Below, piece by piece: positions 3-21,741 of a stretch of 64,000 nucleotides of DNA. The notes beneath the pieces were generated by a model. It had not been told where the DNA came from and did not search any database. It worked only from the letters and a program-made list of their open reading frames with translations. Location: positions 1 through 64,000 of the forward strand of contig CANMIP010000002.1 of the NCBI GenBank assembly GCA_947497945.1, read 5' to 3'. The translations under genes were made by a program, and so were the position numbers. How positions within the stretch are numbered: position 1 is the first letter of the stretch; each line of letters opens with the position of its first letter. Source of the DNA: an uncultured Tropicimonas sp. (GTDB lineage: Bacteria; Pseudomonadota; Alphaproteobacteria; Rhodobacterales; Rhodobacteraceae).

Positions 3-719
3 GAGCGGCTGGTTGCCGACATGATCGAACTGGCCAGGCAATACGGGAGCTACGGCTACCGGCGCGTTGCCGTCCTGTTGCGAGATGCAGGCTGGCAGGT
101 CAGTGACGGTCGGATTGAGCGGCTATGGCGGCGGGAGGGGCTGAAGGTGCCACCGAAACAACCGAAGAGAGGCAGGCTTTGGCTGAACGATGGGTCATGC
201 GTCCGACTGCAGCCTGAGTATCGCAACCATGTCTGGTCGTATGATTTCGTGCATTGCCGAACCGATGACGGCAAAGCGTTCCGAACGCTGAACATCCTGG
301 ACGAGTTCAGCCGAGAGTGCCTCACGATCCGGGTGAAGCGAAAGCTGAACTCGACCGATGTGATCGATGCTCTGACCGATCTCTTCATCCTGCGCGGCCC
401 CCCGGCATTTGTCCGGAGCGACAACGGCCCGGAGTTCGTAGCCAAAGACGTTCGAGCTTGGATCGAGGCAGTCGGAGCCAAAACGGCTTTCATCGAGCCG
501 GGGTCACCTTGGGAGAACGGCTACGTCGAGAGTTTCAACGCCAGAATGCGGGACGAGCTGCTCAACGGCGAGATCTTCTATTCACTGAGGGAGGCCCAAA
601 TCATCATCGAAGGCTGGAGAAGGCACTACAACACCAAGCGACCCCACAGTGCATTGGGCTACAGGCCACCGGCACCGGAAACCATCATCAAGATGGAACC
701 AAGGCCGGTCATGCACTAA
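3..719 (+). CDS. IS3-family transposase OrfB, 5'-truncated by the window edge
   Basis: C-terminal part of the DDE integrase-type transposase of an IS3-family (IS407-group-like) element. The reading frame is open from base 3, so the true start lies outside the window. An HTH_21-like segment (YGYRRVAVLLRDAGW) is followed by the rve integrase core with all three catalytic acidic residues visible: Asp in WSYDFVHC, Asp in VRSDNGPEF and Glu in GYVESFNARM. The usual closing motif YNTKRPHSALGYRPP is present and the frame ends normally. The matching OrfA is not visible here, but an OrfA scrap of the same IS type lies at 27983. The DDE core is intact, so the copy may be functional if the upstream part is complete. 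Confidence 0.9.
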   Translation, partial: ERLVADMIELARQYGSYGYRRVAVLLRDAGWQVSDGRIERLWRREGLKVPPKQPKRGRLWLNDGSCVRLQPEYRNHVWSYDFVHCRTDDGKAFRTLNILDEFSRECLTIRVKRKLNSTDVIDALTDLFILRGPPAFVRSDNGPEFVAKDVRAWIEAVGAKTAFIEPGSPWENGYVESFNARMRDELLNGEIFYSLREAQIIIEGWRRHYNTKRPHSALGYRPPAPETIIKMEPRPVMH

Positions 720-1903: not shown

Positions 1904-3190
1904 TTACTTCGACAAGAGGCGTCCGGCAGCATCGAAAACCATCTCTGAAGCAGCTCCGGCGACGGAGAGCGTTTCACTTGCGTGGACATGGTCCAGAAGC
2001 GCAGGCGAAACCCAGACCCGATGGATCTCCAAGGTATTCTTTATCCTGACGATCTTTGCCGTTGGAGGCGTCACCAGGTTGCAGGTCTTCAAGGCCACCG
2101 CGATGGCATCGTGATCCGTTTCGAGCACCATGGGCAGTTTCGCCGGTGCGAGGATCGTTGCGGTGATCGCGTTCGTGTACATCGCGCCGAGGTCGATCTT
2201 CTCGACGCAGGCGCGCGTCGAGATATCTGCGCTTCCGATTCCGACTCCATTGCCGTGCGACTGTGGCGTGACATCCAGAGCGACGATCTTCTGGATCGAC
2301 GGGGCATCGAAGCCCGGCAGCCCGGAGCCAGGGCGCCCTGTCACGTTCGGGTCCAATCCCTCGCCGCTGATGTTCTTGCCGATCTCGTCTACGATCAGGA
2401 CGTCAATTTCCGGGAATAGCAGCCGCCCGATGGAGTTCTTGGCAGTTTCCAGGAGCGCCTTCTCGCGCTCCATGATCCGGTCCGCCGGGATGATTTCAAG
2501 GTCCATCAAGTCGTCGAAGGCGTTTTCGAGGATCGCCAGGCCGAACAGCACCGGCACTTGCTCCAGCAGGGCTTCCGCTGCCTGGGGAAGGACCGCGTTG
2601 AACCGGGCAAACCCATGGCTGTGCAGGGCGACCGCGCCCTTGTGCTTTGCCAACCCGATGCTGAGCATCTTCACCAGCCCGCTTTCATACCGTGCCTTGA
2701 AGTCGGCATGGGGTTTCACCTTGTTCATCACGACGATGGCGTCGGCCTCGAAGGCGTTGCGATCCGTGTAGAGCGGTGTGCCATCGGGCAGACGGGCGAC
2801 CTCGACGACCTCCATGGAAGACCGGATTTCGGCCCCCGTCGAGGCCTCGGTGATGCCGTATCCGGCAAGCACCTTGAGCTGCCCTTCGGCGGTCGCACCG
2901 CCATGACTGCCCATTGCGGGCACGATGAAGGGATGCGCCCCTTTGGATCTTAGCCCCGCAACGAGCGCAGCGACGATCTCCACAAGGCCAGCGATGCCCC
3001 GGCTTCCGACCGTGATCGCGATGCTCTTGCCGTCAAGATCCGCGTTGTCGACCTTCTCGAGTTCGGATCGAACCCGTGCCTCGATATCGCTCAGGCGCGG
3101 ACGGTCGAAATGCTGGTCGACCGGGGTCAGGGGTGGGAAGGGATAGTCCATCCCACCCTCGATGTTCACTTTGATCGGTCCGAGATCCAT
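1904..3190 (-). CDS. LarA-like nickel-dependent hydroxyacid racemase/epimerase (DUF2088)
   Basis: A 428-residue protein of the lactate racemase (LarA) superfamily. In characterised LarA, the nickel-pincer nucleotide (NPN) bound to a Lys takes hydride from and returns it to C2 of a 2-hydroxyacid. Candidate equivalents of the LarA residues are visible: R64 (VGSRG), H96 (GSHGG), H161 (NKVKPHADF), K174 in GLVKMLSIG as the likely cofactor-tethering lysine, and H183/H190/H192. No signal peptide is seen, so it is probably cytosolic. It begins 5 nt after the dctM stop, as last gene of a TRAP operon. The larC-larE-larB cofactor genes are divergent about 3.7 kb away, which strongly supports a real NPN enzyme. 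The substrate is unknown; other LarA homologues act on malate, phenyllactate and other 2-hydroxyacids, so lactate should not be assumed. Confidence 0.82.
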   Translation of the reverse strand: MDLGPIKVNIEGGMDYPFPPLTPVDQHFDRPRLSDIEARVRSELEKVDNADLDGKSIAITVGSRGIAGLVEIVAALVAGLRSKGAHPFIVPAMGSHGGATAEGQLKVLAGYGITEASTGAEIRSSMEVVEVARLPDGTPLYTDRNAFEADAIVVMNKVKPHADFKARYESGLVKMLSIGLAKHKGAVALHSHGFARFNAVLPQAAEALLEQVPVLFGLAILENAFDDLMDLEIIPADRIMEREKALLETAKNSIGRLLFPEIDVLIVDEIGKNISGEGLDPNVTGRPGSGLPGFDAPSIQKIVALDVTPQSHGNGVGIGSADISTRACVEKIDLGAMYTNAITATILAPAKLPMVLETDHDAIAVALKTCNLVTPPTAKIVRIKNTLEIHRVWVSPALLDHVHASETLSVAGAASEMVFDAAGRLLSK

Positions 3191-3194
3191 GGCG

Positions 3195-4478
3195 TCAATA
3201 CAGCGACGGAAGCGCCAGCGAGATCGCCGGTATGTAGGTAATCAGCATCAGCAACACGATCATGCCAGCAAAGAAAGGCAGGATCGCCTTGCTGAGTTTC
3301 TCGATGGTAACGCCCGAGATACTGCTCGCCACGAAGAGGTTCACACCAAGCGGCGGCGTACAGAACCCGATCGCGAGATTGACCGTCATGATGACGCCGA
3401 AGGCGATCGGATCGACCCCGAGGGCAACGGTCACCGGCAGCAGGATTGGGGTCATGATGATGATCGAGGAGATCGTTTCCATGAACATCCCGATGACCAG
3501 CAGCATGAGGTTGATCAGCAGGAGTATGATGATCGGGTTGTCGGAAAGAGACGTGAGCCACATGGCGAGATCCGAGGGAATTCGGGCAAGCGTGATGACG
3601 CGACCGAATGCGGTTGCCATGATGACCAGGATCAGGATCGTACCGCTGGTCGTTGCGCTGCTGGCCAGAAGGTCGGGCAGATCCTTGAAGCGGATATCCC
3701 GGTAGACGAACAGGCCGACAAAGGCGGCATAGAGGACAGCGACCGCCCCGGCCTCGGTGGGCGTGAAGATGCCGCTGTAGATGCCCCCCAAAATAATCAC
3801 CGGGACAAGGAGCGCCCAGACGGATTCGCGAAAGCTCACCGCCACGTGTTTCGGTGAGAAATCCTTTGTCGACTCTGCGATGGTCTCGTTGCCTCGCAAC
3901 AGGAAACGGGCGACGAGCATGAACATGATGGCGAACAGGACACCGGGGATCACGCCGGCCAGGAACAGCTTGCCGATCGATACCTCGGCCGTCACCCCGT
4001 AGATGATGAAGGGGATGCTGGGCGGGATCATCACGCCGATCATGCCCGAAGCCGCCGTGAGAGAGGCGCTGAAGCGCCGCTCGTAGCCGACCTTTTCCAT
4101 CTCGGGGATGAGGTTGGAGCCGATGGCGGCGACCGTTGCCGGCGACGAGCCGGAAATGGCCGCGAAGAAAACCGAGGCAAGCACGTTCACATAGGCGAGG
4201 CCGGCGCGGATATGGCCGATGAGCGAGTTGGCGAAGCCGACCAACCGGCGGGACATGCCGCCCTTCTGCATCACGTCCCCAGCGAGGATGAACAGCGGAA
4301 CGGCGATCAGGGGGAAAGAATCCGCCCCGGTCACGACCGATCGGGCGAGGAGGGCCATCGGCGGCGCTCCGTCCACGAAGAGCATCACACTCATGGTTGC
4401 GATCCCGAGGCAGATGCCGATGGGGACACTGATGAGCAGGCAGACAAACAAAACGGAGAAGAGGACGAGGGCAATCAT
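3195..4478 (-). CDS. dctM: TRAP transporter large permease (DctM-type), system 1
   Basis: A 427-residue, highly hydrophobic inner-membrane protein with the length and repeat architecture of DctM (about 12 membrane segments), which forms the Na+-coupled translocation pathway of TRAP importers. Typical family segments are visible: AAISGSSPATVAAIG near the first third, IPPSIPFIIYG, GIFTPTEAGAVAVLYA, and near the C-terminus a FCTPPLGVNLFV motif. It starts 1 nt after the dctQ stop and its stop lies 4 nt before the larA-like start, so the four genes form a tight operon. It presumably imports the substrate or product of the LarA-like enzyme. Confidence 0.95.
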   Translation of the reverse strand: MIALVLFSVLFVCLLISVPIGICLGIATMSVMLFVDGAPPMALLARSVVTGADSFPLIAVPLFILAGDVMQKGGMSRRLVGFANSLIGHIRAGLAYVNVLASVFFAAISGSSPATVAAIGSNLIPEMEKVGYERRFSASLTAASGMIGVMIPPSIPFIIYGVTAEVSIGKLFLAGVIPGVLFAIMFMLVARFLLRGNETIAESTKDFSPKHVAVSFRESVWALLVPVIILGGIYSGIFTPTEAGAVAVLYAAFVGLFVYRDIRFKDLPDLLASSATTSGTILILVIMATAFGRVITLARIPSDLAMWLTSLSDNPIIILLLINLMLLVIGMFMETISSIIIMTPILLPVTVALGVDPIAFGVIMTVNLAIGFCTPPLGVNLFVASSISGVTIEKLSKAILPFFAGMIVLLMLITYIPAISLALPSLY

Positions 4479-4479
4479 C

Positions 4480-4974
4480 TCAGTCGAGGCCTCCGGATTC
4501 TGGAAGTGGGGTGCGAAGCAGCGGGATCAGGTGCTGGATGACCCGGATCGAGGACAGCAGCGCGCCGATCGGGGCCGAGGCATAGAGGATGGGAATGGGA
4601 AGCCCGAGGACGACGGATTTCTGGCTGGCAACGAAAGGCTTCAGGATGAGCTTCAGGCATTCAACGGTCAGCACGCTGAAAAAGGTCAGGATCAGCAGGC
4701 TGACCAGGATGGCCATCACACGACGCCCCGTGGGGCCAAACATGTCGACCAGGACCGTGATGCGGATATGCTCACCGCGCTTGAAGGCAAGGCTGACGGA
4801 GATCCAGACGAACCAGACGAACAACCAGAGCGTCAGTTCCTCTCCCCAGGACAGCGACGCGTTCAGGACGTATCGCATGAAGACATTGCCGGCGATCAGG
4901 GCAACGATTGACGCAAGCAGAACGGCGCTCAGCACGCGCTCGGCATTGGCGTCGAGCCATTTCAGAAATGCCAC
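4480..4974 (-). CDS. dctQ: TRAP transporter small permease (DctQ-type), system 1
   Basis: A 164-residue protein with four predicted membrane segments, the accessory membrane subunit of a TRAP importer. The family pattern F(M)RYV followed by WGEEL and LFVWFVWIS is seen in the N-terminal half. I chose the GTG at 4974 because GGGAGGGG lies 4 nt upstream of it; the longer frame with ATG at 5007 has no such signal and would begin inside a hairpin (4997-5018). It sits between dctP and dctM in the usual P-Q-M order. Confidence 0.88.
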   Translation of the reverse strand: MAFLKWLDANAERVLSAVLLASIVALIAGNVFMRYVLNASLSWGEELTLWLFVWFVWISVSLAFKRGEHIRITVLVDMFGPTGRRVMAILVSLLILTFFSVLTVECLKLILKPFVASQKSVVLGLPIPILYASAPIGALLSSIRVIQHLIPLLRTPLPESGGLD

Positions 4975-4996
4975 GGGTCCCCTCCCTGTATGTGGC

Positions 4997-5018
4997 GAGC
5001 GCCCCATTCGGGGCGCCC
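4997..5018 (-). terminator. Hairpin in the dctP-dctQ intergenic gap
   Basis: GAGCGCCCC and GGGGCGCCC form a 9-bp stem (one G-U pair) around ATTC, 17 nt after the dctP stop and without a T-run. It resembles the 3' stabilising or attenuating hairpins found after the other five binding-protein genes of this window and would favour excess DctP over membrane subunits. Confidence 0.55.
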
Positions 5019-5034
5019 GGTTGGATTTGAGAGG

Positions 5035-6033
5035 TCAGCTTCCGCTTTCGGCGGCCACTGCGGCCACCCATGCATCATAGGCCTCGGCACCAACTGTATC
5101 GCGGTACTCGGCGCGGACGCTTTCGGTCTTCTCGGCGAAAACGGCACGCTCTTCGGGGCTCAGTTCGACGACGTTCACGCCGGCATCCCGGATCTTCTGG
5201 AGCTGGCCGGCTTCTTCCCCATTCACCAGCTCTTGCTGGTAGGCCGAGGCCGCCGCCATCGACTCCTGCACGAGCGCCTGATGCTCTTCCGACAGGCTTG
5301 CGAAGAAGTCCTGGCTGATCACCGGGATGTAGACAGTGAAGACATGCCCGGTCAGGGACACATGCTTCTGCACCTCGTAGAAACGCTGCGAGTCGATCAG
5401 CGCAATCGGGTTTTCCTGACCGTCGATGACGCCCTGCTGAAGCGCCGAATAGACCTCTCCGAAGTTCATCGGGGTCGGGTTCGCGCCCAGGGTGGTAAAG
5501 GTGTCCACATGCGCCGGAACCTTCATCGTGCGCAGCTTCACCCCATCCAGATCCTCGGGGGTCTTGATCGGGCGGACATTGTTGGTGACATGCCGCAGGC
5601 CGTTTTCCAGCCAGCCAAGGCCAACCAGGCCCTGGTTCTGCAGGCGCCCCAGCATTGCGTCGCCGGTCTCGCTTTCGAACGTCGCGAGCGCGATGTCCTT
5701 GCTGGAATACATGTAGGGCAGCTCGATCACGGCAAAGGCAGGATCCCAGCCGGCAAAGAAAGACGAGGGCGGCACGGCCATTTCCAGAACGCCGGTCTGA
5801 ACGCCTTCGATCATTTCGCGATCCGGCCCCATCTGCGAGGAGGGGAAGATCTGAACATCGATCTCGCCGCCGGAGCCGGCTTCGACCAGCTCCTCAAATT
5901 TCAGCAGCGCGCGATGCATGTGATATTGCTCATTCGCGCCATGGCCCACCTTGATAACGGTTTCGGCATAAGCGGCAGCGGACAGGCTGAGCGAGACGAT
6001 TGCGCCAAGCGCAAGTGTGGATTTTCCGAACAA
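5035..6033 (-). CDS. dctP: TRAP transporter substrate-binding protein (DctP-type), system 1
   Basis: A 332-residue periplasmic binding protein that captures an organic acid and delivers it to DctQM. The Sec signal peptide is clear (FGKSTLALGAIVSLSLSAAA, cleavage near AYA-ET). Family features include LGANPTPMNFGEVYSALQQG, where the conserved Arg (LRTMKVP) and Asn residues bind the carboxylate, and VIDGQENP. The start is an unusual TTG at 6033, supported by a GGGAGG ribosome-binding site; no ATG is available nearby. First gene of the dctP-Q-M-larA operon, divergent from gntR-larCEB. Co-location with a racemase suggests that the ligand is a chiral 2-hydroxyacid, which is inference. Confidence 0.93.
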   Translation of the reverse strand: MFGKSTLALGAIVSLSLSAAAYAETVIKVGHGANEQYHMHRALLKFEELVEAGSGGEIDVQIFPSSQMGPDREMIEGVQTGVLEMAVPPSSFFAGWDPAFAVIELPYMYSSKDIALATFESETGDAMLGRLQNQGLVGLGWLENGLRHVTNNVRPIKTPEDLDGVKLRTMKVPAHVDTFTTLGANPTPMNFGEVYSALQQGVIDGQENPIALIDSQRFYEVQKHVSLTGHVFTVYIPVISQDFFASLSEEHQALVQESMAAASAYQQELVNGEEAGQLQKIRDAGVNVVELSPEERAVFAEKTESVRAEYRDTVGAEAYDAWVAAVAAESGS

Positions 6034-6073
6034 TTGATCCTCCCTGGGTTCGAGCCGAAGCGGTCAGGCTTCT

Positions 6074-6099
6074 TGGCTGGTGTGTGGTATATCAGATAG
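6074..6099 (+). promoter_or_regulatory. Candidate GntR operator, copy 1 (lar/TRAP divergent promoter region)
   Basis: The 140-nt gap between dctP and gntR contains TTGGCTGGTGTGTG followed by GTATATCAGATA. This element recurs 5.4 kb away (11495-11520) between the second gntR and the lactonase gene with 20 of 26 positions identical. Because each copy lies upstream of a gene for a closely similar FCD-GntR regulator, it is a good candidate for their common operator. It also contains a TTGGCT element that could act as a -35 box toward gntR-larCEB. Confidence 0.6.
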
Positions 6100-6173
6100 A
6101 GTATAGAAATCAACGTCGATCTTTGCTAAACTGCCTGTGTCACTTCGAACCGGTCGAAAAAAGGAATGCGCCC

Positions 6174-6863
6174 ATGCAGATCAAGCGTCCCGTTTCCTTG
6201 GGAAAAATGGCCGAGGACCGGATCCGGACCGGAATCGTTCGTGGCGAGTTTCAACTTGGCGAATCCCTGCAGGAAAACCGACTCTCCGCGAGTTTCGGCA
6301 TCAGCAAGACCCCGATTCGGGAGGCACTCGCGGCGCTCGGGCGGCAAGGCCTGGTGGAGTTCTTTCCGAACCGGGGCGCGTTTGTCTTCACCCTGGACCA
6401 GGAAGAGGCCCGGCAGCTCTGCCGGTATCGGCTGATGCTGGAGAACAGGGCGCTTGAGCTGTCCAACACGCTTGACCATGACGGGCTGGTGGGCGCGCTC
6501 GAAACGGTCTGCGAGGAAATGTCGGCGGCCCTGACCGGCGACGCGTTCGACCGTTACCTTGACCTCGACACCGAGTTTCACGACGCCTTTTTCGATTTCT
6601 GTGGCAACAAGTACCTTCGCGCCGGCTATCGCCAGATCAGCGATGTCGTGGCCACGATGCGCACCCATTTGTCCAAACGTCCCGACCGGACCGATATCTC
6701 CTATCGCGAACACCGCGCGGTGCTAGAGCACGTTCGGGAGGGCGATCTTTCGGCGGCCCGCTCCGTCCTTGAACGGCATGTGACACGCGGCGAACGCTCC
6801 TACATTGATCTTGTCGGCGAGCGACAGGGTGCCGACGGAACCGCCGGATCGGGCCGGGTCTGA
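6174..6863 (+). CDS. FCD-family GntR transcriptional regulator of the lar/TRAP locus
   Basis: A 229-residue regulator with an N-terminal winged helix (about residues 10-75, containing FGISKTPIREALAALGRQGL) and a C-terminal FCD ligand domain whose metal-site residues are visible (LDTEFHDAFF, RTHLSKRP, YREHRAVLEHV, ERHV). Members usually repress uptake and catabolism genes and are released by an organic acid. The ATG at 6174 has AAGGA 8 nt upstream; the open frame further upstream is not used. It leads the gntR-larC-larE-larB operon and faces dctPQM-larA. The GntR at 10732 is strikingly similar in the FCD half. Confidence 0.92.
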   Translation: MQIKRPVSLGKMAEDRIRTGIVRGEFQLGESLQENRLSASFGISKTPIREALAALGRQGLVEFFPNRGAFVFTLDQEEARQLCRYRLMLENRALELSNTLDHDGLVGALETVCEEMSAALTGDAFDRYLDLDTEFHDAFFDFCGNKYLRAGYRQISDVVATMRTHLSKRPDRTDISYREHRAVLEHVREGDLSAARSVLERHVTRGERSYIDLVGERQGADGTAGSGRV

Positions 6864-8047
6864 TGCATATTCACCTTGATCTCCTGGGCGGTCTTGCAGG
6901 CGACATGTTTATTGCGACGATGCTGGATCTGCGGCCCGACCTCACGGAGCGCGCGCTGTCCGTCGCGGAGGAGCTGGGCCTGAGAGACAGGGTGCGTGTC
7001 GCGTGCAAACCGCACAAGGTCAGTGGGTTCACCGGCAGGCAGGTCTCGGTGACCTTGTGCGGGAGCAATGGCGCCGAGCATCATCACAGGAATTTTCGAG
7101 ACATTCGCACCTTGATCGAGACATCCCGGCTCGCGACCGGCGAGAAGGCCCGCTCGCTGGATATATTTGGCCATCTGGCGCGTGCCGAGGCCAAGGTGCA
7201 CGGGGTCTCTCCTGACGCGGTGCATTTCCACGAGGTTGGCGCGCTGGATTCGATCATCGATATCGTCACTGCGGCCCGCATCCTCGAGACCATTGGGTCC
7301 TGCAGCTGGTCGGCGAGCCCGATCCCGACCGGATCGGGGCGTGTGCAGTGCCAACACGGGATCATTCCGGTTCCGGCCCCGGCGACGATATTGCTGCTCG
7401 AGGGCATGCAGCTTGTGGATGACGGCATTCCCGGCGAGCGTGTGACCCCCACCGGGGCTGCCTTGCTGAAACATCTGCAACCGGCTTTCGCCGGCCCCTC
7501 GCAGCCCATGACACTGCTGGGCACGGGTGCCGGATTTGGGCATGCCACGCTCCCGGGAATTCCGAACATGCTCCGCGCGGTCCAATATGATGAAACCCAC
7601 GGGGCGCGCGCAGACCGGGTGGCGACAATTGCCTTTGAAGTCGACGACCAGACGCCGGAGGACCTGGCGACGGGGCTCGAGATATTGCGGGACCGCGCGG
7701 ATGTGCTGGACGTCTTCGTGGCTCCGGTGCTGGGCAAGAAGAACCGGCAGGCACAGCACGTCACCATCCTGGCGCACTCCGACACGGAGGATGCCGTGAT
7801 CGAGGCAGCGTTCGAACAGACGACGACGCTCGGCCTGCGTGTCCATCATACGCTCCGGCGAACCCTGGAGCGGCGAATGCATCAGGTCGGGGAAACGCGG
7901 GTCAAGGTCGCGGACAGGCCGGGAGGCGCGACGGCCAAGGCCGAGGCAGACGACCTTGCCGATGCCGCATCAACAGCGCTGTCCCGCGCCAGGCGCGCGC
8001 ATGAAGCAACGGGTACGGCCTTGCGCCGTAACGGAGGGACCCAATGA
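6863..8047 (+). CDS. larC: NPN cofactor nickel insertase LarC
   Basis: A 394-residue LarC: the CTP-dependent cyclometallase that inserts nickel into pyridinium-3,5-bisthiocarboxylic acid mononucleotide to finish the nickel-pincer nucleotide. The family start HLDLLGGLAGDMF is present, as are a histidine cluster H73-H75 (AEHHHRNF) and the conserved FHEVGALDSI (122-131). The C-terminal CTP-binding half is in the same frame, unlike the Lactobacillus plantarum gene, which is split as larC1/larC2 and joined by programmed frameshifting. The ATG overlaps the gntR stop by one base and the 3' end overlaps larE by 4 nt, implying translational coupling. Confidence 0.95.
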   Translation: MHIHLDLLGGLAGDMFIATMLDLRPDLTERALSVAEELGLRDRVRVACKPHKVSGFTGRQVSVTLCGSNGAEHHHRNFRDIRTLIETSRLATGEKARSLDIFGHLARAEAKVHGVSPDAVHFHEVGALDSIIDIVTAARILETIGSCSWSASPIPTGSGRVQCQHGIIPVPAPATILLLEGMQLVDDGIPGERVTPTGAALLKHLQPAFAGPSQPMTLLGTGAGFGHATLPGIPNMLRAVQYDETHGARADRVATIAFEVDDQTPEDLATGLEILRDRADVLDVFVAPVLGKKNRQAQHVTILAHSDTEDAVIEAAFEQTTTLGLRVHHTLRRTLERRMHQVGETRVKVADRPGGATAKAEADDLADAASTALSRARRAHEATGTALRRNGGTQ

Positions 8048-8832
8048 GCATCTCGGCCCTGCAATCGGTTCTTGACGATATCGGCCCCGCAACCATCGCG
8101 GTCAGCGGCGGGGTCGACAGCATGACCCTTGCCGCTTTGGCCTGCGACCGGCACGAAGCGAGCATTGTCTGCCACGCTGTCTCACCCGCGGTCCCGGAGC
8201 GGGCCACGCGGCGCGTCAAGGCGCTCGCGCAAAGCCGGGGGTGGAACCTCGCGATCCTCGATGCGGGCGAATTTGCGGATTCCGATTACCGGTCCAATCC
8301 GGTCAATCGCTGTTTCTTCTGCAAGACCCGGCTCTATGGATCCATCGCGCGCCGGTCCGACCTGCCCGTACTCTCGGGAACCAATCTCGATGATCTGCAG
8401 GATTTTCGACCCGGGCTCGAGGCCGCGCGCATGCACGCGGTGCGCCATCCCTTCGTGGACGCGGACATGCGCAAGAGTGACGTCCGCGCAGTTGCCCGTC
8501 AGTTGGGATTGGCGGAGATTTCCGATCTTCCCGCATCCCCCTGCCTGTCCAGCCGGGTCACCACCGGTCTCCCGATCGAGGCTGACGACCTGAAGGTGAT
8601 CGAACGGATCGAAGACGCGGCGCGGGCTGTTCTGGGAGAGGTGACGCTCCGATGCCGGCTCACACCGAACGGGTTCCAGCTTGCCGTCGACGAGGCTGTT
8701 CTGGCGTCGCTGAGCACCGCGACTGCCGAAGAACTGTCCGACCGGGTGTCCCACTTGCTTCGCCCGCAGGATCAATATGTCGGATTGTGGCGATACAAAA
8801 AGGGCAGCGCCTTTGTGGGGGCGCCGGCATGA
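8044..8832 (+). CDS. larE: NPN cofactor sulfur insertase LarE (PP-loop ATPase)
   Basis: A 262-residue ATP-dependent sulfur insertase that converts the two carboxyls of the pyridinium dicarboxylate intermediate to thiocarboxylates. The PP-loop SGGVDS lies at residues 21-26, a CFFCK motif at 90-94 and SPCLSSR at 166-171. C167 matches the position of the sacrificial cysteine (Cys176) of the L. plantarum enzyme, so this may be the cysteine-sacrificing rather than the [4Fe-4S]-recycling type; that reading is inference. Start ATG overlaps the larC end; the stop overlaps the larB start (ATGA). Confidence 0.95.
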   Translation: MSISALQSVLDDIGPATIAVSGGVDSMTLAALACDRHEASIVCHAVSPAVPERATRRVKALAQSRGWNLAILDAGEFADSDYRSNPVNRCFFCKTRLYGSIARRSDLPVLSGTNLDDLQDFRPGLEAARMHAVRHPFVDADMRKSDVRAVARQLGLAEISDLPASPCLSSRVTTGLPIEADDLKVIERIEDAARAVLGEVTLRCRLTPNGFQLAVDEAVLASLSTATAEELSDRVSHLLRPQDQYVGLWRYKKGSAFVGAPA

Positions 8833-9500
8833 GCGGGCATCCGGAGATCATCCTGGACGAAGACCGTCGGGCGCGCGTGGGAGTGGAGGAAGCGATCTTC
8901 TGCGCCCAGAAAACAGCCGCGCAGGTCTCGAAGATCGTGGAAATGAGCGTCTCACCCATGCGGCGGCTGTTCACGCGAGTGTCGCGCGAAACCTTCGAGG
9001 CATTGCCTGCGGACATTCAGGATCGGTTGCGCTTCGACGAGGTCTCCCGGACAGCTGTGCTCGGAGAGGAACAGGCCGTGACGGGGCCGCCACGGGCCGC
9101 CATCGTCTCGGCCGGGTCGTCCGACGCGCCGGTTGTGGCCGAAGCGGCCCAGACGCTTCGCTACCATGGTCGCGACTGTACCATCCTGTCCGATGTTGGC
9201 GTGGCGGGGCTCTGGCGGCTTCTGGAGCGGGTGGAGGAGATCGGGAAATACCCGGTTGTGATTGCGGTGGCCGGGATGGACGCAGCCTTGCCGACGGTCC
9301 TGGGCGGGCTGGTCCCGTCCTGCATCATCGGCGTGCCGACCTCGACCGGTTACGGTGCCGCGCGGAACGGCGAGACGGCCCTCGCAGCCATGCTATCGAG
9401 CTGTGCGCCCGGGCTGACCGTGACCAATATCGACAATGGCTATGGCGCGGCGATTGCCGCGCTCAGGATTCTCAGGGCACTGGACGCCGCGCAGGCGTGA
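8829..9500 (+). CDS. larB: NPN cofactor synthase LarB (NaAD carboxylase/hydrolase)
   Basis: A 223-residue LarB, a PurE-like enzyme that carboxylates the pyridinium ring of nicotinic acid adenine dinucleotide and hydrolyses the dinucleotide, the first step of NPN synthesis. The PurE-like core AGSSDAPVVAEAA (95-107) and GVPTSTGYGAARNG are visible, as is MLSSCAPG with C192, in the position of the catalytic cysteine of the family. The start is the ATG in the ATGA overlap with larE; a longer open frame upstream is only a shadow over larE. Last gene of the gntR-larCEB operon; the pathway B-E-C is complete. Confidence 0.95.
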   Translation: MSGHPEIILDEDRRARVGVEEAIFCAQKTAAQVSKIVEMSVSPMRRLFTRVSRETFEALPADIQDRLRFDEVSRTAVLGEEQAVTGPPRAAIVSAGSSDAPVVAEAAQTLRYHGRDCTILSDVGVAGLWRLLERVEEIGKYPVVIAVAGMDAALPTVLGGLVPSCIIGVPTSTGYGAARNGETALAAMLSSCAPGLTVTNIDNGYGAAIAALRILRALDAAQA

Positions 9501-9578: not shown

Positions 9579-10721
9579 TCAGTCATTCCACCGCTTGGAA
9601 TAGGTGAAGTCCAGCGCGAGCACGATCACTATGCAGCTTGCCGCCGCCAGCGCCGTGCCGGTGAACCCCCAGGCCGTGTAGATCTGCCGGAAGGTGGCCG
9701 TGCCCACGAACATCGCCGCATATGTGACGCCGCTATAGAGACCAAGGATCGCGGCGCGATTGCGCGGCGAAATCGATGTGAGCCTGCCCACAAGGATTGT
9801 CATCCCGAGATGCACGCAGATCCCCCAGCAAAACGCGACGATCAGGAGCGACAGATAGGCCTGCCCGGCGATGGAGAGCACGACATAGGTCGTGATCAGG
9901 GCCCCGAACACGATCGGCCCCGCCCGCTGCCGTCCGTAGCGGTCGATATAGGGGTCGAACAGGGTGGCAGCACCGTATCCCAGTCCGTAACTGAGCGAGA
10001 TCAGCCCGGCCAATGTCGTCGACCGGCCGAGATCCTCGTGCACATGAGAACCAACGAACGCATAGAGCCCGTAAAACGCGATCATGAAAGCGGAGACGGA
10101 AAAGAGAACCGGCGCGATATTGGGAACCTTCAGCGCCTCGAATGGCGAGGGGGCGGCAACGGGGTCGGTCTCCGCACTCGGCGCCGGGATCATGCCGGAC
10201 AGCACATATGTGATCAGGAACCCGGCCGCCGAGAGGATCGTGAAGACGATGCGCCAATGCACGAGGTCGGCGAGAAAGGCCGAGACGCTCACCCCGACCA
10301 CGAGGCTGACGGTCCAGCCGGTGAGCACCTTGCCAACCGTCTCGTTCTCGCGGCCCGGCGGCGCGACATCGGCGGCGAAACCATAGATGCAGGGCAGGCA
10401 AACGCCCGCGGCGATCCCGGCAAGGGCCTGAAACAGGACAAGGCTCGACAGAGTCGGGGCGAAAGACGTCGCGGCGAGCGCAAGTGACAGGGTCGTCATC
10501 GCGACAAGCAGCGCCCTGCGCGCGCCCACCTTGCCGACATTGGGCGCAAGGAGCACCGCGCTCGCGGCGGTTGTGGCGCCGTAGAAGGCCGACGCCACGA
10601 GCACGTCAGGGGCTGTCTTGCCCGCAAAGGACTGCGCGACCGAGCCGGCGAGCGGGCTGAGCGCAAGCGAATTGGAGCCCACCACGCCAATGGCGAGCGA
10701 GAGAACGAGAACTGGATTCAT
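9579..10721 (-). CDS. Major facilitator superfamily transporter
   Basis: A 380-residue integral membrane protein with about 12 hydrophobic segments and an MFS-like cytoplasmic loop after the sixth (PSAETDPVAAPSPFEAL). The N-terminal half has FAADVAPPGRENETVGKVL in a position typical of drug/metabolite permeases. The ATG at 10721 gives an N-terminus that starts directly with the first membrane segment; the longer upstream frame runs through gntR and is rejected. It lies 10 nt after the gntR stop, so both are one transcript. The substrate cannot be read from sequence; import or export of a sugar acid would fit its position. Confidence 0.88.
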   Translation of the reverse strand: MNPVLVLSLAIGVVGSNSLALSPLAGSVAQSFAGKTAPDVLVASAFYGATTAASAVLLAPNVGKVGARRALLVAMTTLSLALAATSFAPTLSSLVLFQALAGIAAGVCLPCIYGFAADVAPPGRENETVGKVLTGWTVSLVVGVSVSAFLADLVHWRIVFTILSAAGFLITYVLSGMIPAPSAETDPVAAPSPFEALKVPNIAPVLFSVSAFMIAFYGLYAFVGSHVHEDLGRSTTLAGLISLSYGLGYGAATLFDPYIDRYGRQRAGPIVFGALITTYVVLSIAGQAYLSLLIVAFCWGICVHLGMTILVGRLTSISPRNRAAILGLYSGVTYAAMFVGTATFRQIYTAWGFTGTALAAASCIVIVLALDFTYSKRWND

Positions 10722-10731
10722 TGGATTTCTG

Positions 10732-11418
10732 CTACTTCGAGGCGGTTGAGGCATCCGCGACGGCGATATCGTCGACGGTTTCCTCATAGCTGTTCTTGGT
10801 GCGTCCGATATGCCGGAGCAGGGTCTGGTGAACCTCGTCCATGTCCCGGCTGCGGAACGCCGCGAGCAGTTCGATATGCTCGTCAAAGGACAGCTCGGTG
10901 TGCCGGGGCTTCGAGGCAAGATGCGTTCTCAGCGCGGCGATCTTGCCCGAATAGCGCCCGAAACTGTCGCGAAGATACCCGTTCTCGCAATGGCGGAACG
11001 CCGCTGCGTGGAAATCCGTGTCCAGCGCCAGATAGGACGGGATGTCATCCTCAGAAATCGTCCGCTTCATCTCCGCCACGATCTGTTCGATATCGGCAAT
11101 GAACGCGTCCGGGTTCCGTTCGAGCGCAAGCCCAAGGGCCGCGGTCTCGATCGCCATTCGGAAGTCGCAAATCTCGATAACCTCGCGGGCGCTCAAGGAG
11201 AAAACATAGGCGCCCTTCCGGGGTTCCACATCCACCAGGCCCTCATTTCGCAATTGTGCGAGCGCTTCCCGGACCGGCGTCTTCGACACGTTCAGTTCCG
11301 CGGCCAGCTGGCGCTCGGAAATCGCGGCGCCGAGTTCGAGCTTCCCGGTCACGATCTCGCTCCGAAGATGTTCAAGGACGCTCTCGGTCAGGGATTTCGG
11401 CTTTTCGAAGCGCTCCAT
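10732..11418 (-). CDS. FCD-family GntR transcriptional regulator of the sugar-acid operon
   Basis: A 228-residue regulator with a GntR winged helix (LNVSKTPVREALAQLRNEGL at about 44-63) and an FCD domain (LALDTDFHAAAF, RTHLASKPRHTELSFDEH, LRHIGRTK). Its FCD half matches that of the GntR at 6174 closely, including the RTHL-KP-T-S-EH pattern, so the two are recent paralogues. The start has an AGGAG ribosome-binding site 9 nt upstream. It is divergent from the SMP-30 lactonase operon and heads the gntR-MFS pair. Copy 2 of the shared operator-like element lies in the intergenic region. Confidence 0.92.
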   Translation of the reverse strand: MERFEKPKSLTESVLEHLRSEIVTGKLELGAAISERQLAAELNVSKTPVREALAQLRNEGLVDVEPRKGAYVFSLSAREVIEICDFRMAIETAALGLALERNPDAFIADIEQIVAEMKRTISEDDIPSYLALDTDFHAAAFRHCENGYLRDSFGRYSGKIAALRTHLASKPRHTELSFDEHIELLAAFRSRDMDEVHQTLLRHIGRTKNSYEETVDDIAVADASTASK

Positions 11419-11494: not shown

Positions 11495-11526
11495 TTGACT
11501 GGTGTGTGATACCTGATATACCAGCA
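11495..11526 (+). promoter_or_regulatory. Candidate GntR operator copy 2 overlapping a sigma70-like promoter
   Basis: TTGACTGGTGTGTG followed by ATACCTGATATACCAG. It contains a -35-like TTGACT (11495-11500) and, 16 nt further, TATACC, reading toward the lactonase operon. The outer arms CTGGT and ACCAG are inverted. The first 26 nt match the element at 6074-6099 at 20 positions. A repressor bound here would occlude the promoter. Confidence 0.6.
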
Positions 11527-11581
11527 AACAGCAACTGTAGAATCGGATCAATTTCCGATGCTGCGCAGGGAGGAACCGAAC

Positions 11582-12451
11582 GTGCTGGCTGAACTGGTAC
11601 TGGATTGCGGGAACCACCATGGCGAAGGCCTCTACTACAACGCGCTCGACGCGCAGATGTGGTGGACGGATATCGAGGGGCGTGCGCTTTGGTCGCTCGA
11701 TCCGGTCTCCGGCGCTGCCCGCAAGATCGACATGCCGGACCGTGTCTGTTGCTTTGCGCATCGGCGTGACGGCGGCATGATCCTGGCCTTTGCCGACCGG
11801 ATCGCCTTCTTCGACCCCACCGACGGATCCTTCGAAACCTTGTCCGAATTCGAATCGAAGAACACCGAGACGCGGGCAAATGACGGGCGGACCGACCGGC
11901 AGGGCCGGTTCATCGTCGGCGGCATGAACGAGATCACCGGCAAACCCGACAGCAGCGTCATCCGGATCGATGCCGATGGCAGTATCACGACGATCATCGA
12001 CGGCGTGTCCTGCGCAAATTCGACCTGCTTCTCGCCCGACGGTCGTACCATGTATTCTACCGACACCCCCGAGCAGACGATCCGGGCCTACGAATACGAT
12101 CCCGACACGGGTGAGATCGGCAACATGCGGATCCTCGCGGATTTCGCCGACGAACCGGGCGTCCCCGATGGCTCCTGCGTAGACGCCGAAGGCGGCGTCT
12201 GGAACGCGGAATGGGAGGGGCGCCGCGTGGTGCGCATCGCGCCGGACGGATCCATCGACCGGGTGATCGAGGTGCCGGCATGGAAGCCCACCTGCTGCGC
12301 CTTCGGCGGTCCGGACATGGACATTCTCTACATCACGACATCCCGGCTGATGAGCAGCCCGGAACAGATCGCGGCCGACCCCCAGGCGGGTGGCCTGTTT
12401 GCTGTCAGACCCGGCGTGCGCGGCATCGTCGACACGCCATTTGCGGGCTGA
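11582..12451 (+). CDS. SMP-30/gluconolactonase-family sugar lactonase
   Basis: A 289-residue six-bladed propeller lactonase of the SMP-30/LRE family, which hydrolyses aldonolactones to aldonic acids with a divalent metal. Metal-site candidates are the Glu of HGEGLYY, the Asn of CANSTCFSPDG and the Asp of VPDGSCVDAEGGVWNAEW, the family hallmark. The GTG at 11582 is chosen because GGGAGGAA lies 7 nt upstream; the ATG at 11558 precedes that site. First gene of a long plus-strand operon of sugar-acid uptake and breakdown, 30 nt before an ABC binding-protein gene. Confidence 0.92.
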   Translation: MLAELVLDCGNHHGEGLYYNALDAQMWWTDIEGRALWSLDPVSGAARKIDMPDRVCCFAHRRDGGMILAFADRIAFFDPTDGSFETLSEFESKNTETRANDGRTDRQGRFIVGGMNEITGKPDSSVIRIDADGSITTIIDGVSCANSTCFSPDGRTMYSTDTPEQTIRAYEYDPDTGEIGNMRILADFADEPGVPDGSCVDAEGGVWNAEWEGRRVVRIAPDGSIDRVIEVPAWKPTCCAFGGPDMDILYITTSRLMSSPEQIAADPQAGGLFAVRPGVRGIVDTPFAG

Positions 12452-12481: not shown

Positions 12482-13516
12482 ATGACGACTTTCACACTCC
12501 GATCGATGGCCAGCGCGGCCGCCTTGCTTGCAAGCACCGCAATTGCCGGAGCCGTCGACTACACGGCGCCCCAACCCATGGTCGATGGCGCGCAGGCCGA
12601 CATGTCGGCGCTCTCCAATGATGGCGATCTGCGCATCGCCTACATGCCGCCGGCGACCGAATTCAACTATTACATCGCCATCGGCGAGGGCGTGAAAGCC
12701 CTGGCAGCCGAGGCCGGTGTCGAAGTGTTCATGCTGGCACCGCAATCGGGCTCCGACATCAACGGCCAGATGGGCATGATCCAGGACGCGATCACGCAAG
12801 GCGTCGATGCCATCATCCTGTCCACCCATGACGAAGCCGCCGCCGCACCCCTGGTGAAGCGGGCGGTCGAGAACGGCATTGCCGTGGTCATCGTCAACTC
12901 CGATATCGGCAACTTCCCGACCCCGGTGCATGCCGTCGTTGGCTATTCCCAGCGCAACGGCACCCACAAGATCGGGGAGTTCCTGGTCGAAAAGGCCGCC
13001 GGCTCCGAGCTGCAGATCGGCGTGATCGAAGGGCTTCCCGGCTATCATTCGACCGAACGCGTCGGCGGCTTCCTTGATGGCATCGAGGGATCGGAAAACC
13101 TCGATGTTGTGGCCTCGATCGCCGGCGGCTGGAATGTCGAGGGCGGCAACACTGCCGGCATGGACCTGCTGCAGGCCAACCCCGACATCGATGTGCTCTT
13201 CGCCGCCAATGACTACATGATCATGGGCGCCGCCCTGGCCGCCAAGGCGCTCGGCAAGCGCGACCTGATGCTTCTGGGCAATGACGGCGACACCGCCGCA
13301 CTGGAAGAAATCGCCGGGGGTGCTGTCACCGCGACCGTCAACACGACGCCTTTCGTCATGGGTCAGATCGCCTTGCAGGTCACGCTCGACTCGCTTGACG
13401 GCAAATTCGGCGGCGGCTTCGTCGAGACGCCGACCGTCGTTGTCGATACCGAGAGCGTGGTGCCGGCTCTGCAGGATCCTGACAGCCTCTATCCCAAACC
13501 GTCGAAGAGTTACTGA
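12482..13516 (+). CDS. Sugar ABC transporter substrate-binding protein, importer 1
   Basis: A 344-residue periplasmic binding protein of the RbsB-like (Peripla_BP_4) class. The Sec signal peptide spans about residues 1-23 (LRSMASAAALLASTAIAGA). The two-lobe fold is indicated by IAYMPPATEFNYYIAIGEGV, the QDAITQGVDAIILSTHD strand and the hinge region VLFAANDYMIMGAALAAKAL. A GGGAGGAA ribosome-binding site precedes the ATG by 4 nt. It begins importer 1 (binding protein, ATPase, permease) and is followed by a strong hairpin. Confidence 0.93.
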   Translation: MTTFTLRSMASAAALLASTAIAGAVDYTAPQPMVDGAQADMSALSNDGDLRIAYMPPATEFNYYIAIGEGVKALAAEAGVEVFMLAPQSGSDINGQMGMIQDAITQGVDAIILSTHDEAAAAPLVKRAVENGIAVVIVNSDIGNFPTPVHAVVGYSQRNGTHKIGEFLVEKAAGSELQIGVIEGLPGYHSTERVGGFLDGIEGSENLDVVASIAGGWNVEGGNTAGMDLLQANPDIDVLFAANDYMIMGAALAAKALGKRDLMLLGNDGDTAALEEIAGGAVTATVNTTPFVMGQIALQVTLDSLDGKFGGGFVETPTVVVDTESVVPALQDPDSLYPKPSKSY

Positions 13517-13526
13517 CGGTTTCCCG

Positions 13527-13557
13527 AGGGCAGCCCCTCCTCCACTTGGGCTGCCCT
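13527..13557 (+). terminator. Perfect 10-bp hairpin after binding-protein gene, importer 1
   Basis: AGGGCAGCCC and GGGCTGCCCT pair perfectly around an 11-nt loop, 10 nt after the binding-protein stop and followed by CCCCTTTC. It probably acts as a partial terminator or mRNA-stabilising 3' end, giving more binding protein than ATPase. Confidence 0.7.
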
Positions 13558-13598
13558 CCCCTTTCAAAACTGATCCTGAACCGACTGGGGCACGTCTC

Positions 13599-15110
13599 AT
13601 GCCTGACCAGACCAATACCGCTGTCCCTGCATGGGAGTTGCGGAACCTGACCAAGAGGTTTGCCGGAATCGTCGCCAATGAGTCCGTCAGCCTGTCGCTG
13701 GAACGCGGCCAGATCCACGGGTTGCTCGGTGAAAACGGCTGCGGAAAATCGACCCTGATCAAGATGATGATGGGGGTCCACCAGCCCAGCGCCGGAGAGA
13801 TCCTGCGCGACGGCCATCCGGTCACCATCGCCGGTCCCACGGCCGCGCGCGCCGCCGGCCTCGCCGCCGTGTTCCAGGAATTCTCGCTGGTGCCGACCCT
13901 GACCGTGGCCGAGAATATCTGGCTGGGCAACCTGCCCGGGCATCGCGCCCGGGTGGATTGGCAGACAATGCGGGACAGCGCGACCGAGGTCATGGCCCGC
14001 CTCGCCGTTGCCATCGACCCCGAGGCCATTGTGGCCGACCTGTCGGTGGCCGATCAGCAGCTGGTCGAGATTGCCAAGGCCATCGCCACCGATGCCTCCA
14101 TGCTGATCCTCGACGAGCCAACCACGGCGCTCGGCCTCGAAGAAATCAAGGACCTGCACCGGATCCTGCGCAAGCTTGCAGCCCAGGACAAGGCGATCCT
14201 CTACATCTCCCACCGGCTGGACGAGGTGGAAGAACTTGTCGATTGCGTGACCGTCCTGAAGGATGGCCGCGTTGTCTCGACGGCCGCTGAAACAGAGGTG
14301 TCTGTCGATGCCTTTGTCGCCGCGATGATCGGTGAGATCTCCAACCACTACCCGAAAGTTGACAACGTCCGGGAAGAGGTCCTGCTGGAGGCAAAGGGCC
14401 TGCGAACCGCCAACCGCGTGCAGGATGTGAGCTTCAACGTCCATGCCGGCGAGGTCTTCGGGTTGGGCGGCGTGCTCGGCTCGGGTCGCACCGAGATTGC
14501 CCGCGCGCTCTTCGGCGTCGACCGCCTGCTCGCGGGCGAGGTCAAGGTCGACGGCCAGACATTGCGCCTGCGTTCCCCCGCCGATGCGGTGGCCGCTGGC
14601 ATCGCGCTGGTGCCGGAAAACCGCAAGGTCGACGGGCTGTTCTTCAACTTCCAGGGACAGCCGAACATGTCGATCTCCAAGCTCGCCCGGCTCGGCTCGC
14701 CCGCCGCGATGAGCCTGCGGACCGAGGAACGGCTGACCCATGAGCTCTATGACCGGCTCGAGGTATCCGCCAGCGCCAAGGACCGGCTCGTCGGCCTGCT
14801 CTCGGGCGGCAACCAGCAGAAGATCGTCATCGGACGATGGCTCTTTGCCGGCGCGCGGGTCTTCGTGCTGGACGAGCCGACGCAGGGCATCGATGTCGGC
14901 GCCCGCGCCGCTGTCTACACCCTCATCAACGAGCTGACAGCGGCCGGACATGCCGTGGTCCTCATCTCCTCCGACGACAACGAACTCCTGGCGATGTCCG
15001 ACCGCATCGGAATCGTCAATCACGGCCGGCTGGTCGATATCCGGGCCGCCTCCGATGTCCGCAAATCGGACCTCGTCCGCGCCTCTTCAGAACAGGAGAC
15101 CGCCGCATGA
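13599..15110 (+). CDS. Sugar ABC transporter ATPase (two fused nucleotide-binding domains), importer 1
   Basis: A 503-residue RbsA/MglA-like protein with two tandem ABC domains. Domain 1 has Walker A GENGCGKST (44-52), a slight variant of GENGAGKST, a Q-loop FQEFSLVPTLTV, the signature region LSVADQQLVEIAKA and Walker B LILDEPTTAL. Domain 2 has the degenerate P-loop GSGRTEIARAL usual for this class, signature LLSGGNQQKIVIGRW and Walker B VLDEPTQGIDVG. I use ATG 13599; the longer upstream frame overlaps the binding-protein gene and hairpin. The stop overlaps the permease ATG (ATGA). Confidence 0.94.
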   Translation: MPDQTNTAVPAWELRNLTKRFAGIVANESVSLSLERGQIHGLLGENGCGKSTLIKMMMGVHQPSAGEILRDGHPVTIAGPTAARAAGLAAVFQEFSLVPTLTVAENIWLGNLPGHRARVDWQTMRDSATEVMARLAVAIDPEAIVADLSVADQQLVEIAKAIATDASMLILDEPTTALGLEEIKDLHRILRKLAAQDKAILYISHRLDEVEELVDCVTVLKDGRVVSTAAETEVSVDAFVAAMIGEISNHYPKVDNVREEVLLEAKGLRTANRVQDVSFNVHAGEVFGLGGVLGSGRTEIARALFGVDRLLAGEVKVDGQTLRLRSPADAVAAGIALVPENRKVDGLFFNFQGQPNMSISKLARLGSPAAMSLRTEERLTHELYDRLEVSASAKDRLVGLLSGGNQQKIVIGRWLFAGARVFVLDEPTQGIDVGARAAVYTLINELTAAGHAVVLISSDDNELLAMSDRIGIVNHGRLVDIRAASDVRKSDLVRASSEQETAA

Positions 15111-19217: not shown

Positions 19218-19218
19218 C

Positions 19219-21713: not shown

Positions 21714-21741
21714 CCCTTTCACGACACCAGAGGAGGAAACC

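Follow-up and report, generated by a model that had tools for sequence, protein, structure and literature searches.

A predicted group-22 nickel-pincer isomerase encoded with a TRAP importer and cofactor genes in a putative sugar-acid cluster of an uncultured Tropicimonas

Introduction

The closest described systems to the one considered here are the lactate racemase LarA of Lactiplantibacillus plantarum, which binds a nickel-pincer nucleotide (NPN) and is accompanied by larB, larC and larE, and the related D-gluconate 2-epimerases (GntE). Desguin et al. divided 354 LarA relatives into 25 groups and tested 13 proteins; gluconate epimerisation is reported for groups 19 and 20, and the catalytic and cofactor residues are described as not conserved in groups 12, 13 and 16 (PMC7583248). 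Here we describe a LarA-like protein of group 22 that is encoded in DNA from an uncultured Tropicimonas sp. (assembly GCA_947497945.1, contig CANMIP010000002.1, positions 1 to 64,000). The whole of this 64,000-nucleotide stretch is referred to as the window. A reading made from the sequence alone (the original prediction) had placed at positions 1904–9500 a self-contained unit of importer, LarA-like enzyme, cofactor synthesis and regulator that acts on an imported 2-hydroxyacid or sugar acid. We find that the unit is part of a larger cluster of sugar-acid genes and propose that its enzyme inverts C2 of an aldonate-type acid.

The NCBIfam group number apparently follows the numbering of Desguin et al. 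2020 (PMC7583248). Neither "group 22" nor "LarAH22" occurs in the main texts of PMC7583248, PMC11770544 or PMC12611868, and "group 22" is likewise absent from the main text of PMC11796402. A literature search that combined LarA or lactate racemase with terms for tripartite ATP-independent periplasmic (TRAP) transporters returned no article on such a pairing, Table S1 of PMC7583248 (contexts by LarA group) lying outside the search; the word "trap" in a paper that also contains DUF2088 refers to a column and a mass-spectrometer part, not to a transporter.

Results

The LarA-like protein scores 519.6 bits against the NCBIfam model NF052515 (NPN_iso_grp_22, equivalog cut-off 400) and 28.7 bits against the malate racemase model (cut-off 500), which assigns it to a group already named in NCBIfam. 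Its Pfam Lar_N score is low (32.6 bits, cut-off 23.3) and similar to that for DUF362 (28.2, cut-off 24). A search of solved structures with the group-22 profile gave nine matches with no LarA among them, and a single-sequence search gave a weak match to 2yjg (E 0.026). Since these searches did not reach LarA adequately, profile–profile alignment and fold comparison were used. The group-22 profile was aligned with 16 canonical LarA relatives at a probability of 96%, using L. plantarum LarA numbering; these were 16 of 20 picked loci, L090 having no open reading frame (ORF) that carries the motif and L080, L083 and L089 being omitted.

In this alignment, R64, K174 and H190 are the counterparts of the NPN-binding residues R75, K184 and H200 of LarA, and H96 and H161 those of the catalytic residues H108 and H174. 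None of the five varies among the 61 aligned group-22 sequences, namely the window protein and those of 60 of the 73 loci obtained by a genome scan (L031, with an in-frame stop, and L075, a fragment, were left out, as were L009, L016, L027, L044, L046, L048, L053, L061, L068, L069 and L070 to limit the size). The alignment therefore shows both the cofactor site and the acid/base pair of two histidines to be in place. The original prediction had seen Lys and His kept at plausible NPN sites and had named their loss as a finding that would tell against it; the profile alignment, used here in place of a superposition, confirms the former and shows no such loss. Its view that the protein is not L. 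plantarum LarA also holds, because the catalytic Asp72 of LarA is without a counterpart, and the protein is therefore predicted not to be a lactate racemase proper. The two residues that follow H161 are Ala-Asp, and in the 61 sequences mostly Thr, Ala or Asn and then Asp, Ala or Ser. According to PMC7583248 the residues after the second His are Glu-Ser in the gluconate epimerase GntE2, Phe-Phe in LarA and Tyr-Lys in malate racemase, so that on sequence the pair appears nearer to the GntE2 pattern than to either of the others.

The AlphaFold2 model of the protein has a mean predicted local distance difference test score (pLDDT) of 94.9. The 12 top structure matches all belong to the LarA superfamily, with Z scores of 18.9–20.3 and 308–330 residues aligned at 3.5–5.5 Å, and the next entry has a Z score of 5.9. 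The predicted fold is accordingly that of LarA, and the protein is predicted to be an NPN-type isomerase.

The genes of the unit are as follows.

1904–3190, minus strand: larA-like gene, NPN isomerase group 22, 428 amino acids (NF052515 match, fold, residues)
3195–4478, minus strand: dctM, TRAP large permease (Pfam PF06808)
4480–5007, minus strand: dctQ, TRAP small permease (Pfam PF04290)
5035–6033, minus strand: dctP, TRAP solute-binding protein, TTG start (Pfam PF03480, structure matches)
6174–6863, plus strand: gntR, regulator 1, FCD subfamily (GntR and FCD match; ATG start at 6174)
6863–8047, plus strand: larC, nickel insertion, LarC1 and LarC2 in a single ORF (both parts above cut-off)
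8044–8832, plus strand: larE, sulfur insertase, CXXC (C90, C93) and C167 (NCBIfam)
8829–9500, plus strand: larB (NCBIfam)

All three TRAP subunits are recognised by Pfam, and the gaps in dctP-dctQ-dctM-larA are 27, 1 and 4 bases. On the opposite strand (6174–9500), the successive genes of gntR-larC-larE-larB overlap at their ends. Family matches, ORFs, gaps and overlaps together bear out the two facing operons that had been predicted, and the motifs quoted for LarE, LarB and LarC are all present in the translations. The complete eight-gene unit occurs in 5 of the 73 fetched loci (L004, L005, L008, L009 and L012, all from Roseobacteraceae/Paracoccaceae), and this co-occurrence of all eight genes points to more than chance. 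The ORF at the contig start that adjoins larA (window 21–719) is, from its motifs, a probable IS3-like transposase gene; the near relative L004 has other ORFs downstream of larA.

The three NPN biosynthesis equivalogs are all above their cut-offs, LarE with 220.3 bits (cut-off 150), LarB with 246.7 bits (cut-off 175) and LarC in both parts, and these scores with the ORF ends agree with the predicted set of three cofactor enzymes encoded by overlapping genes. A CXXC-C motif characterises the [4Fe-4S]-type LarE according to PMC9283937. C90, C93 and C167 form this motif here, and the LarE is predicted to be of the [4Fe-4S] type rather than of the sacrificial L. plantarum type. When Lar_N and LarC matches were counted in the 5.79 Mb genome, one of each was found, both at this locus, so the larCEB operon most likely serves the single LarA-like enzyme.

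The gene is patchily distributed, being present in 2 of 60 relatives and in 11 of 292 genomes of the order (with the window's own genome counted in both). A quick tree of the window protein and 69 of the 73 loci (without L009, L016, L031 and L075) places the window, L004, L005, L006, L007, L008, L010 and L012 in one clade of eight with an SH-like approximate likelihood ratio test (SH-aLRT) support of 100; the stretches of L006 and L010, from Granulosicoccus, contain TRAP genes, larA and gntR. A Bacillus branch (L020, L024, L026, L027 and L069) likewise has TRAP genes next to larA. Across the window and 70 of the 73 loci (without L009, L016 and L075), the co-directional gene directly upstream of larA is a TRAP gene in at least 12 of 71 and the tripartite tricarboxylate transporter (TTT) gene tctA in at least 2, and the gene directly downstream belongs to a dehydratase family in at least 10 (IlvD/EDD 5, enolase-type 4, UxaA-type 1). 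These counts are lower bounds because many loci are short contigs and because ORF picking took the wrong strand in some GC-rich loci (for example at dctP of the window and L005, and in L006). Linkage of group-22 larA to a TRAP or TTT importer is not peculiar to the window locus.

In other branches larC adjoins larA too, and in Bacillota loci dehydratase-family genes do so. In another branch of the window's order, L125 (877–11650) has UxaA-like dehydratase, LarA and LarC genes downstream of IlvD, dihydrodipicolinate synthase (DHDPS) and RraA genes on the same strand, with a GntR-like gene on the opposite strand between the two runs, a promoter site similar to that described below, and genes for an aldehyde dehydrogenase and an HpcH/HpaI aldolase nearby. 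In L119 (713–10341), of the same order, larA has a TctC receptor gene and a GntR-like gene upstream, and UxaA-like, Ldh_2 and IlvD genes are in the vicinity. In Cytobacillus L020, two encoded enzymes score above cut-off, galactonate dehydratase and alpha-ketoglutaric semialdehyde dehydrogenase, and relatives of galactarate dehydratase and IlvD score below it; L014 has a DHDPS-family gene. Other group-22 branches sit with aldonate/altronate-type dehydratases and with TRAP or TTT importers. Elsewhere, in L011 (899–12223), a group-22 larA is accompanied by genes for a 2-hydroxyacid dehydrogenase and a 2-oxoacid dehydrogenase complex and by a fumarylacetoacetate hydrolase (FAH)-like gene. The control genome of Haloferax volcanii, a culturable archaeon, has a protein above the group-22 cut-off, and a literature search on this protein found nothing.

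Beyond larB, the window continues with the following features.

10732–11418, minus strand: second GntR/FCD regulator, gntR2 (profile match)
11558–12451, plus strand: SMP-30/gluconolactonase-like lactonase (profile match, relatives)
12482–16081, plus strand: ribose-class sugar ATP-binding cassette (ABC) importer 1: binding protein, ATPase, permease
16101–16598, plus strand: small conserved protein, 82% identical to the L153 copy
16624–17616, plus strand: D-2-hydroxyacid dehydrogenase (HADH; under all NCBIfam cut-offs shown)
17642–18313, plus strand: RraA-like aldolase/decarboxylase family protein (under all NCBIfam cut-offs shown)
18294–19217, plus strand: dgoK-like 2-keto-3-deoxygalactonokinase (PF05035, 297.7 bits)
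19078–22737, plus strand: ribose-class sugar ABC importer 2: ATPase, permease, binding protein (19078 is an ORF bound, not a proven start)
22830–23438, plus strand: 2-keto-3-deoxy-6-phosphogalactonate (KDPGal) aldolase, DgoA (NF006600, 269.3 bits, cut-off 207)
23544–24458, plus strand: conserved protein without Pfam or NCBIfam match
24446–25255, plus strand: NAD-dependent sugar dehydrogenase-like protein (NF041293, 132 bits, cut-off 400)

The order HADH-RraA-DgoK-DgoA, with ABC importer 2 between DgoK and DgoA in the window, recurs in L005, L006, L010 and L012. It is also found in L008/L009, where HADH is cut by the locus end and is whole in L153 of the same genome as L008; L007 has RraA and HADH only. 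Identities to relatives in this branch are 82–86% for RraA, 66–72% for HADH, 49–55% for DgoK and 38–46% for KDPGal aldolase. L153 and L154, which continue the clusters of L008 and L012, also carry the lactonase, both ABC binding proteins, the unassigned protein and the sugar dehydrogenase (49–74% identity). The protein at 16101–16598, presumably glyoxalase/VOC-like, is encoded directly before HADH and is 82–90% conserved in four stretches (the window, L012, L153 and L154, two of which are one genome). That at 23544–24458 resembles, by eye, the aldose 1-epimerases. A major facilitator superfamily (MFS) transporter gene (9579–10919) lies downstream of gntR2 on the same strand, and a large amidohydrolase-family gene (25963–27825), not linked to the pathway, follows the sugar dehydrogenase-like gene. 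The unit does have its own LarB, LarC and LarE, importer and regulator as predicted, but "self-contained" does not hold, since it belongs to a wider cluster, probably regulated as a single regulon.

The proposed regulon is based on palindromes resembling TCTGrTrTATCAGA that the window shares with six loci in the promoter between dctP and gntR. Other short promoter palindromes were not conserved and were dropped. Two places in the window are concerned.

6082–6097, no strand: conserved palindromic operator-like site in the dctP/gntR divergent promoter (shared palindrome, weight matrix)
11511–11526, no strand: weak copy of the operator-like site between gntR2 and the lactonase gene (score within random range)

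A weight matrix was trained on six dctP-gntR sites, with the near copy of L004 left out. Sites outside the training set were found before the HADH operon in L005 (26.5), L006 (26.5) and L010 (25.8), before an operon with a sugar-binding protein in L008 (26.5), and in the lactonase/gntR2 and ABC importer 2 promoters of L153 (21.2 and 22.6) and L154 (20.5, 19.7 and 22.6). The best scores in 60 random sequences matched to the composition of each locus were 15.8 for L005, 16.3 for L006, 20.5 for L010, 16.9 for L008, 18.3 for L153 and 16.3 for L154; the best in 15 random 64-kb sequences of window composition was 18.3. A looser pattern gave 3 matches at two places in the window versus 0.52 expected, with as many in 2 of 100 shuffles, a comparison that is circular as the pattern comes from the same source sites. 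With one mismatch allowed, the pattern matches only the 6083 site in the window's own genome. Ten loci of the same order were considered as independent orthologues and rejected, as they belong to other group-22 branches (40–46% identity); 6 of the 10 (L122–L127) have a site scoring 21.8–24.0 beside a GntR gene and 4 do not.

The operator pattern was also used in six genomes to seek co-regulated dehydratases. One-mismatch matches exceeded those of a reversed control clearly in five genomes and modestly in one. Of the five stretches fetched (L153–L157), outside which most of these matches lie, L155–L157 hold sites beside other genes. L156 (2781–9572), on another contig of the L006 genome, has TRAP-like and GntR-like genes whose promoters contain related sites (19.2 and 19.1), and larA was not found in that stretch.

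Discussion

We propose, with a probability of roughly 0.6, that the LarA-like protein is a TRAP-fed, GntR-controlled group-22 NPN isomerase that epimerises an aldonate-type sugar acid at C2 and so feeds the HADH/RraA-like/DgoK/KDPGal aldolase set or a dehydratase encoded elsewhere. The acid would be imported by the TRAP system of the larA operon and, where wider operons occur, could also be made in the cell by the sugar dehydrogenase and lactonase. LarB, LarE and LarC would make NPN for the isomerase, which would take the C2 hydride and return it on the opposite face. The resulting C2 epimer would pass to HADH, the RraA-like protein, DgoK and KDPGal aldolase, or to a dehydratase encoded elsewhere, and the route would end in pyruvate and triose phosphate. 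The GntR/FCD regulators, acting at the shared palindrome, may switch importer, isomerase, cofactor synthesis and downstream enzymes together. Families, gene order, conservation of residues and sites, and the predicted fold come directly from the sequence analysis, and it is from these that C2 epimerisation, the substrate class, operator function and direction of flux are inferred. A sugar acid is suggested by gene context in several branches and more weakly by the residues after H161 and by DctP, the model of which has the sugar acid binding protein DctPAm (7bbr/7bco) as its second Foldseek match (Z 38.7, 30% identity). Of the two substrate classes in the original prediction, gene context thus makes the sugar acid the likelier, and the reaction itself remains a predicted one.

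Several observations weigh against this proposal. Gene context often failed to predict activity according to PMC7583248, and group 22, by the numbering of that paper, is absent among the 13 tested proteins of its Table 1. In the profile alignment, Asp72 of LarA lies opposite a two-residue gap (the position three before the Arg is Val in 33, Ala in 24 and another residue in 4 of the 61 sequences, and never Asp), and the position of Lys298 is likewise a gap, for which the invariant K272 may or may not stand in. The mechanism could for these reasons differ from that of LarA. In the DctP comparison, the isethionate binder 8t9t (Z 39.4) is slightly ahead of the sugar-acid binder and sialate binders follow closely (for example 2cey, Z 37.0), so that, judged from the model, DctP alone does not decide the ligand. 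On the quick tree the loci with TRAP linkage cluster only weakly: 36 of 500 shuffles of the labels gave a value as low. The second site in the window scores 12.1, within the random range, its position being suggestive and its score not; the sites of L004 (15.1, with a maximum of 20.7 in 60 random sequences) and L007 (18.0 and 16.5, with 22.3) are weak, the weight-matrix scan of the L012 stretch found no untrained site, and one L008 site (21.2) falls within an ORF. In the six genomes, one-mismatch matches lie mostly outside these loci and hit many other places, and the sites alone therefore do not define a regulon; it is their position and conservation taken together that suggest one. Finally, IlvD/EDD, enolase-type and UxaA-type profiles, all of which do match in other branches, found nothing in this branch, where they were run on nine stretches belonging to seven genomes (window 1–30000, L004, L005 as a short contig, L006, L008, L010, L012, L153 and L154), which leaves the classical route to 2-keto-3-deoxygalactonate (KDGal) incomplete here.

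Two ways around the missing dehydratase can be envisaged: either the dehydratase acts in trans, or LarA and HADH convert a compound that can skip dehydration, for instance a 3-deoxyaldonate, into a 2-keto acid. In a narrower form of the proposal that follows the first course, LarA would interconvert D-talonate and D-galactonate, or another C2 pair, for a dehydratase encoded elsewhere, DgoK and KDPGal aldolase would finish the De Ley–Doudoroff route, and HADH and the RraA-like protein would be side branches. DgoK and KDPGal aldolase are indeed encoded in the window, dehydratase-family genes adjoin larA in other branches, and the genome has three IlvD/EDD genes, on other contigs, and 15 galactonate dehydratase profile matches, of which some pair up as fragments of a single gene and one lies at window 59524–60306. 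Yet none of the 15 reaches the 311 bits required for galactonate dehydratase (the best has 247), only one of five relatives has a match above it (a Granulosicoccus genome, on another contig), the nine stretches have no match to the three dehydratase profiles, and among the four pathway enzymes it is RraA that shows the highest conservation, which would be odd for a side branch. We regard this version as possible, though on balance unlikely. In the second course, which we put forward still more tentatively, the NPN isomerase would equalise the C2 epimers of a 2-hydroxy-3-deoxyaldonate (or aldonate), a D-specific HADH would oxidise C2, and the RraA-like protein, or DgoK with KDPGal aldolase, would cleave the product to pyruvate. 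Both epimers of a mixture would then be consumed without any aldonate dehydratase, a combination for which no description was found in the titles and abstract openings of the literature searched.

That the enzyme instead racemises a small hydroxyacid (lactate, malate or glycerate) with a hydroxypyruvate- or glyoxylate-reductase-like partner appears improbable. HADH is close to glyoxylate reductase and phosphoglycerate dehydrogenase, and TRAP importers often carry small hydroxyacids. Some LarA relatives prefer glycerate, according to PMC11770544. However, the malate racemase model gives 28.7 bits where 500 are required, the residues after H161 are unlike the lactate or malate pattern, and sugar-acid enzymes recur near larA in distant branches. 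It is very improbable that the protein binds no NPN at all and has an unrelated role, as may be the case for groups 12, 13 and 16. The low Lar_N score, with DUF362 close to it, and the lost Asp72 would fit such a role, but the five cofactor and catalytic counterparts are invariant in all 61 sequences, LarB, LarC and LarE are encoded alongside, the genome's only Lar_N and LarC matches are at this locus, and larC adjoins larA in other branches as well.

Many groups of the LarA superfamily are of unknown function. With a C2-epimerising isomerase of sugar acids as the preferred reading, group 22 gains a concrete candidate role, partner enzymes and importers that can be named, and a promoter site, conserved among relatives, through which uptake of the substrate and synthesis of the cofactor may be coupled. 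Should the absence of a dehydratase be genuine, the genes would encode an undescribed way of degrading sugar acids.

The window protein shares with NF052515 group 22 a score above the equivalog cut-off and the residues conserved across the 61 sequences, whereas the arrangement of TRAP, larCEB and GntR genes and the HADH-RraA-DgoK-DgoA operon are additions of its own branch. With the De Ley–Doudoroff pathway for D-galactose and D-galactonate the cluster has in common a lactonase, DgoK, KDPGal aldolase and a sugar dehydrogenase-like protein; it differs in having no galactonate dehydratase match and in the added HADH, RraA-like protein and LarA. L. plantarum LarA with larBCE has the same fold (Z 18.9–19.3), counterparts of R75, K184, H200, H108 and H174, and LarB, LarC and LarE, but identity over the structural alignment is 16–18%, Asp72 is without a counterpart in the window protein, and the window adds a TRAP importer, sugar-acid genes and a CXXC-C LarE in place of the sacrificial type. 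The D-gluconate 2-epimerases GntE (LarAH19, LarAH20) belong to other groups, and according to PMC7583248 GntE2 has counterparts of Asp72 and Lys298, unlike the window protein, which has none for Asp72. They resemble the window protein in fold (4nar, a T. maritima protein, Z 19.3), in NPN residues, in the small polar residues after the second His and in a sugar-acid gene context.

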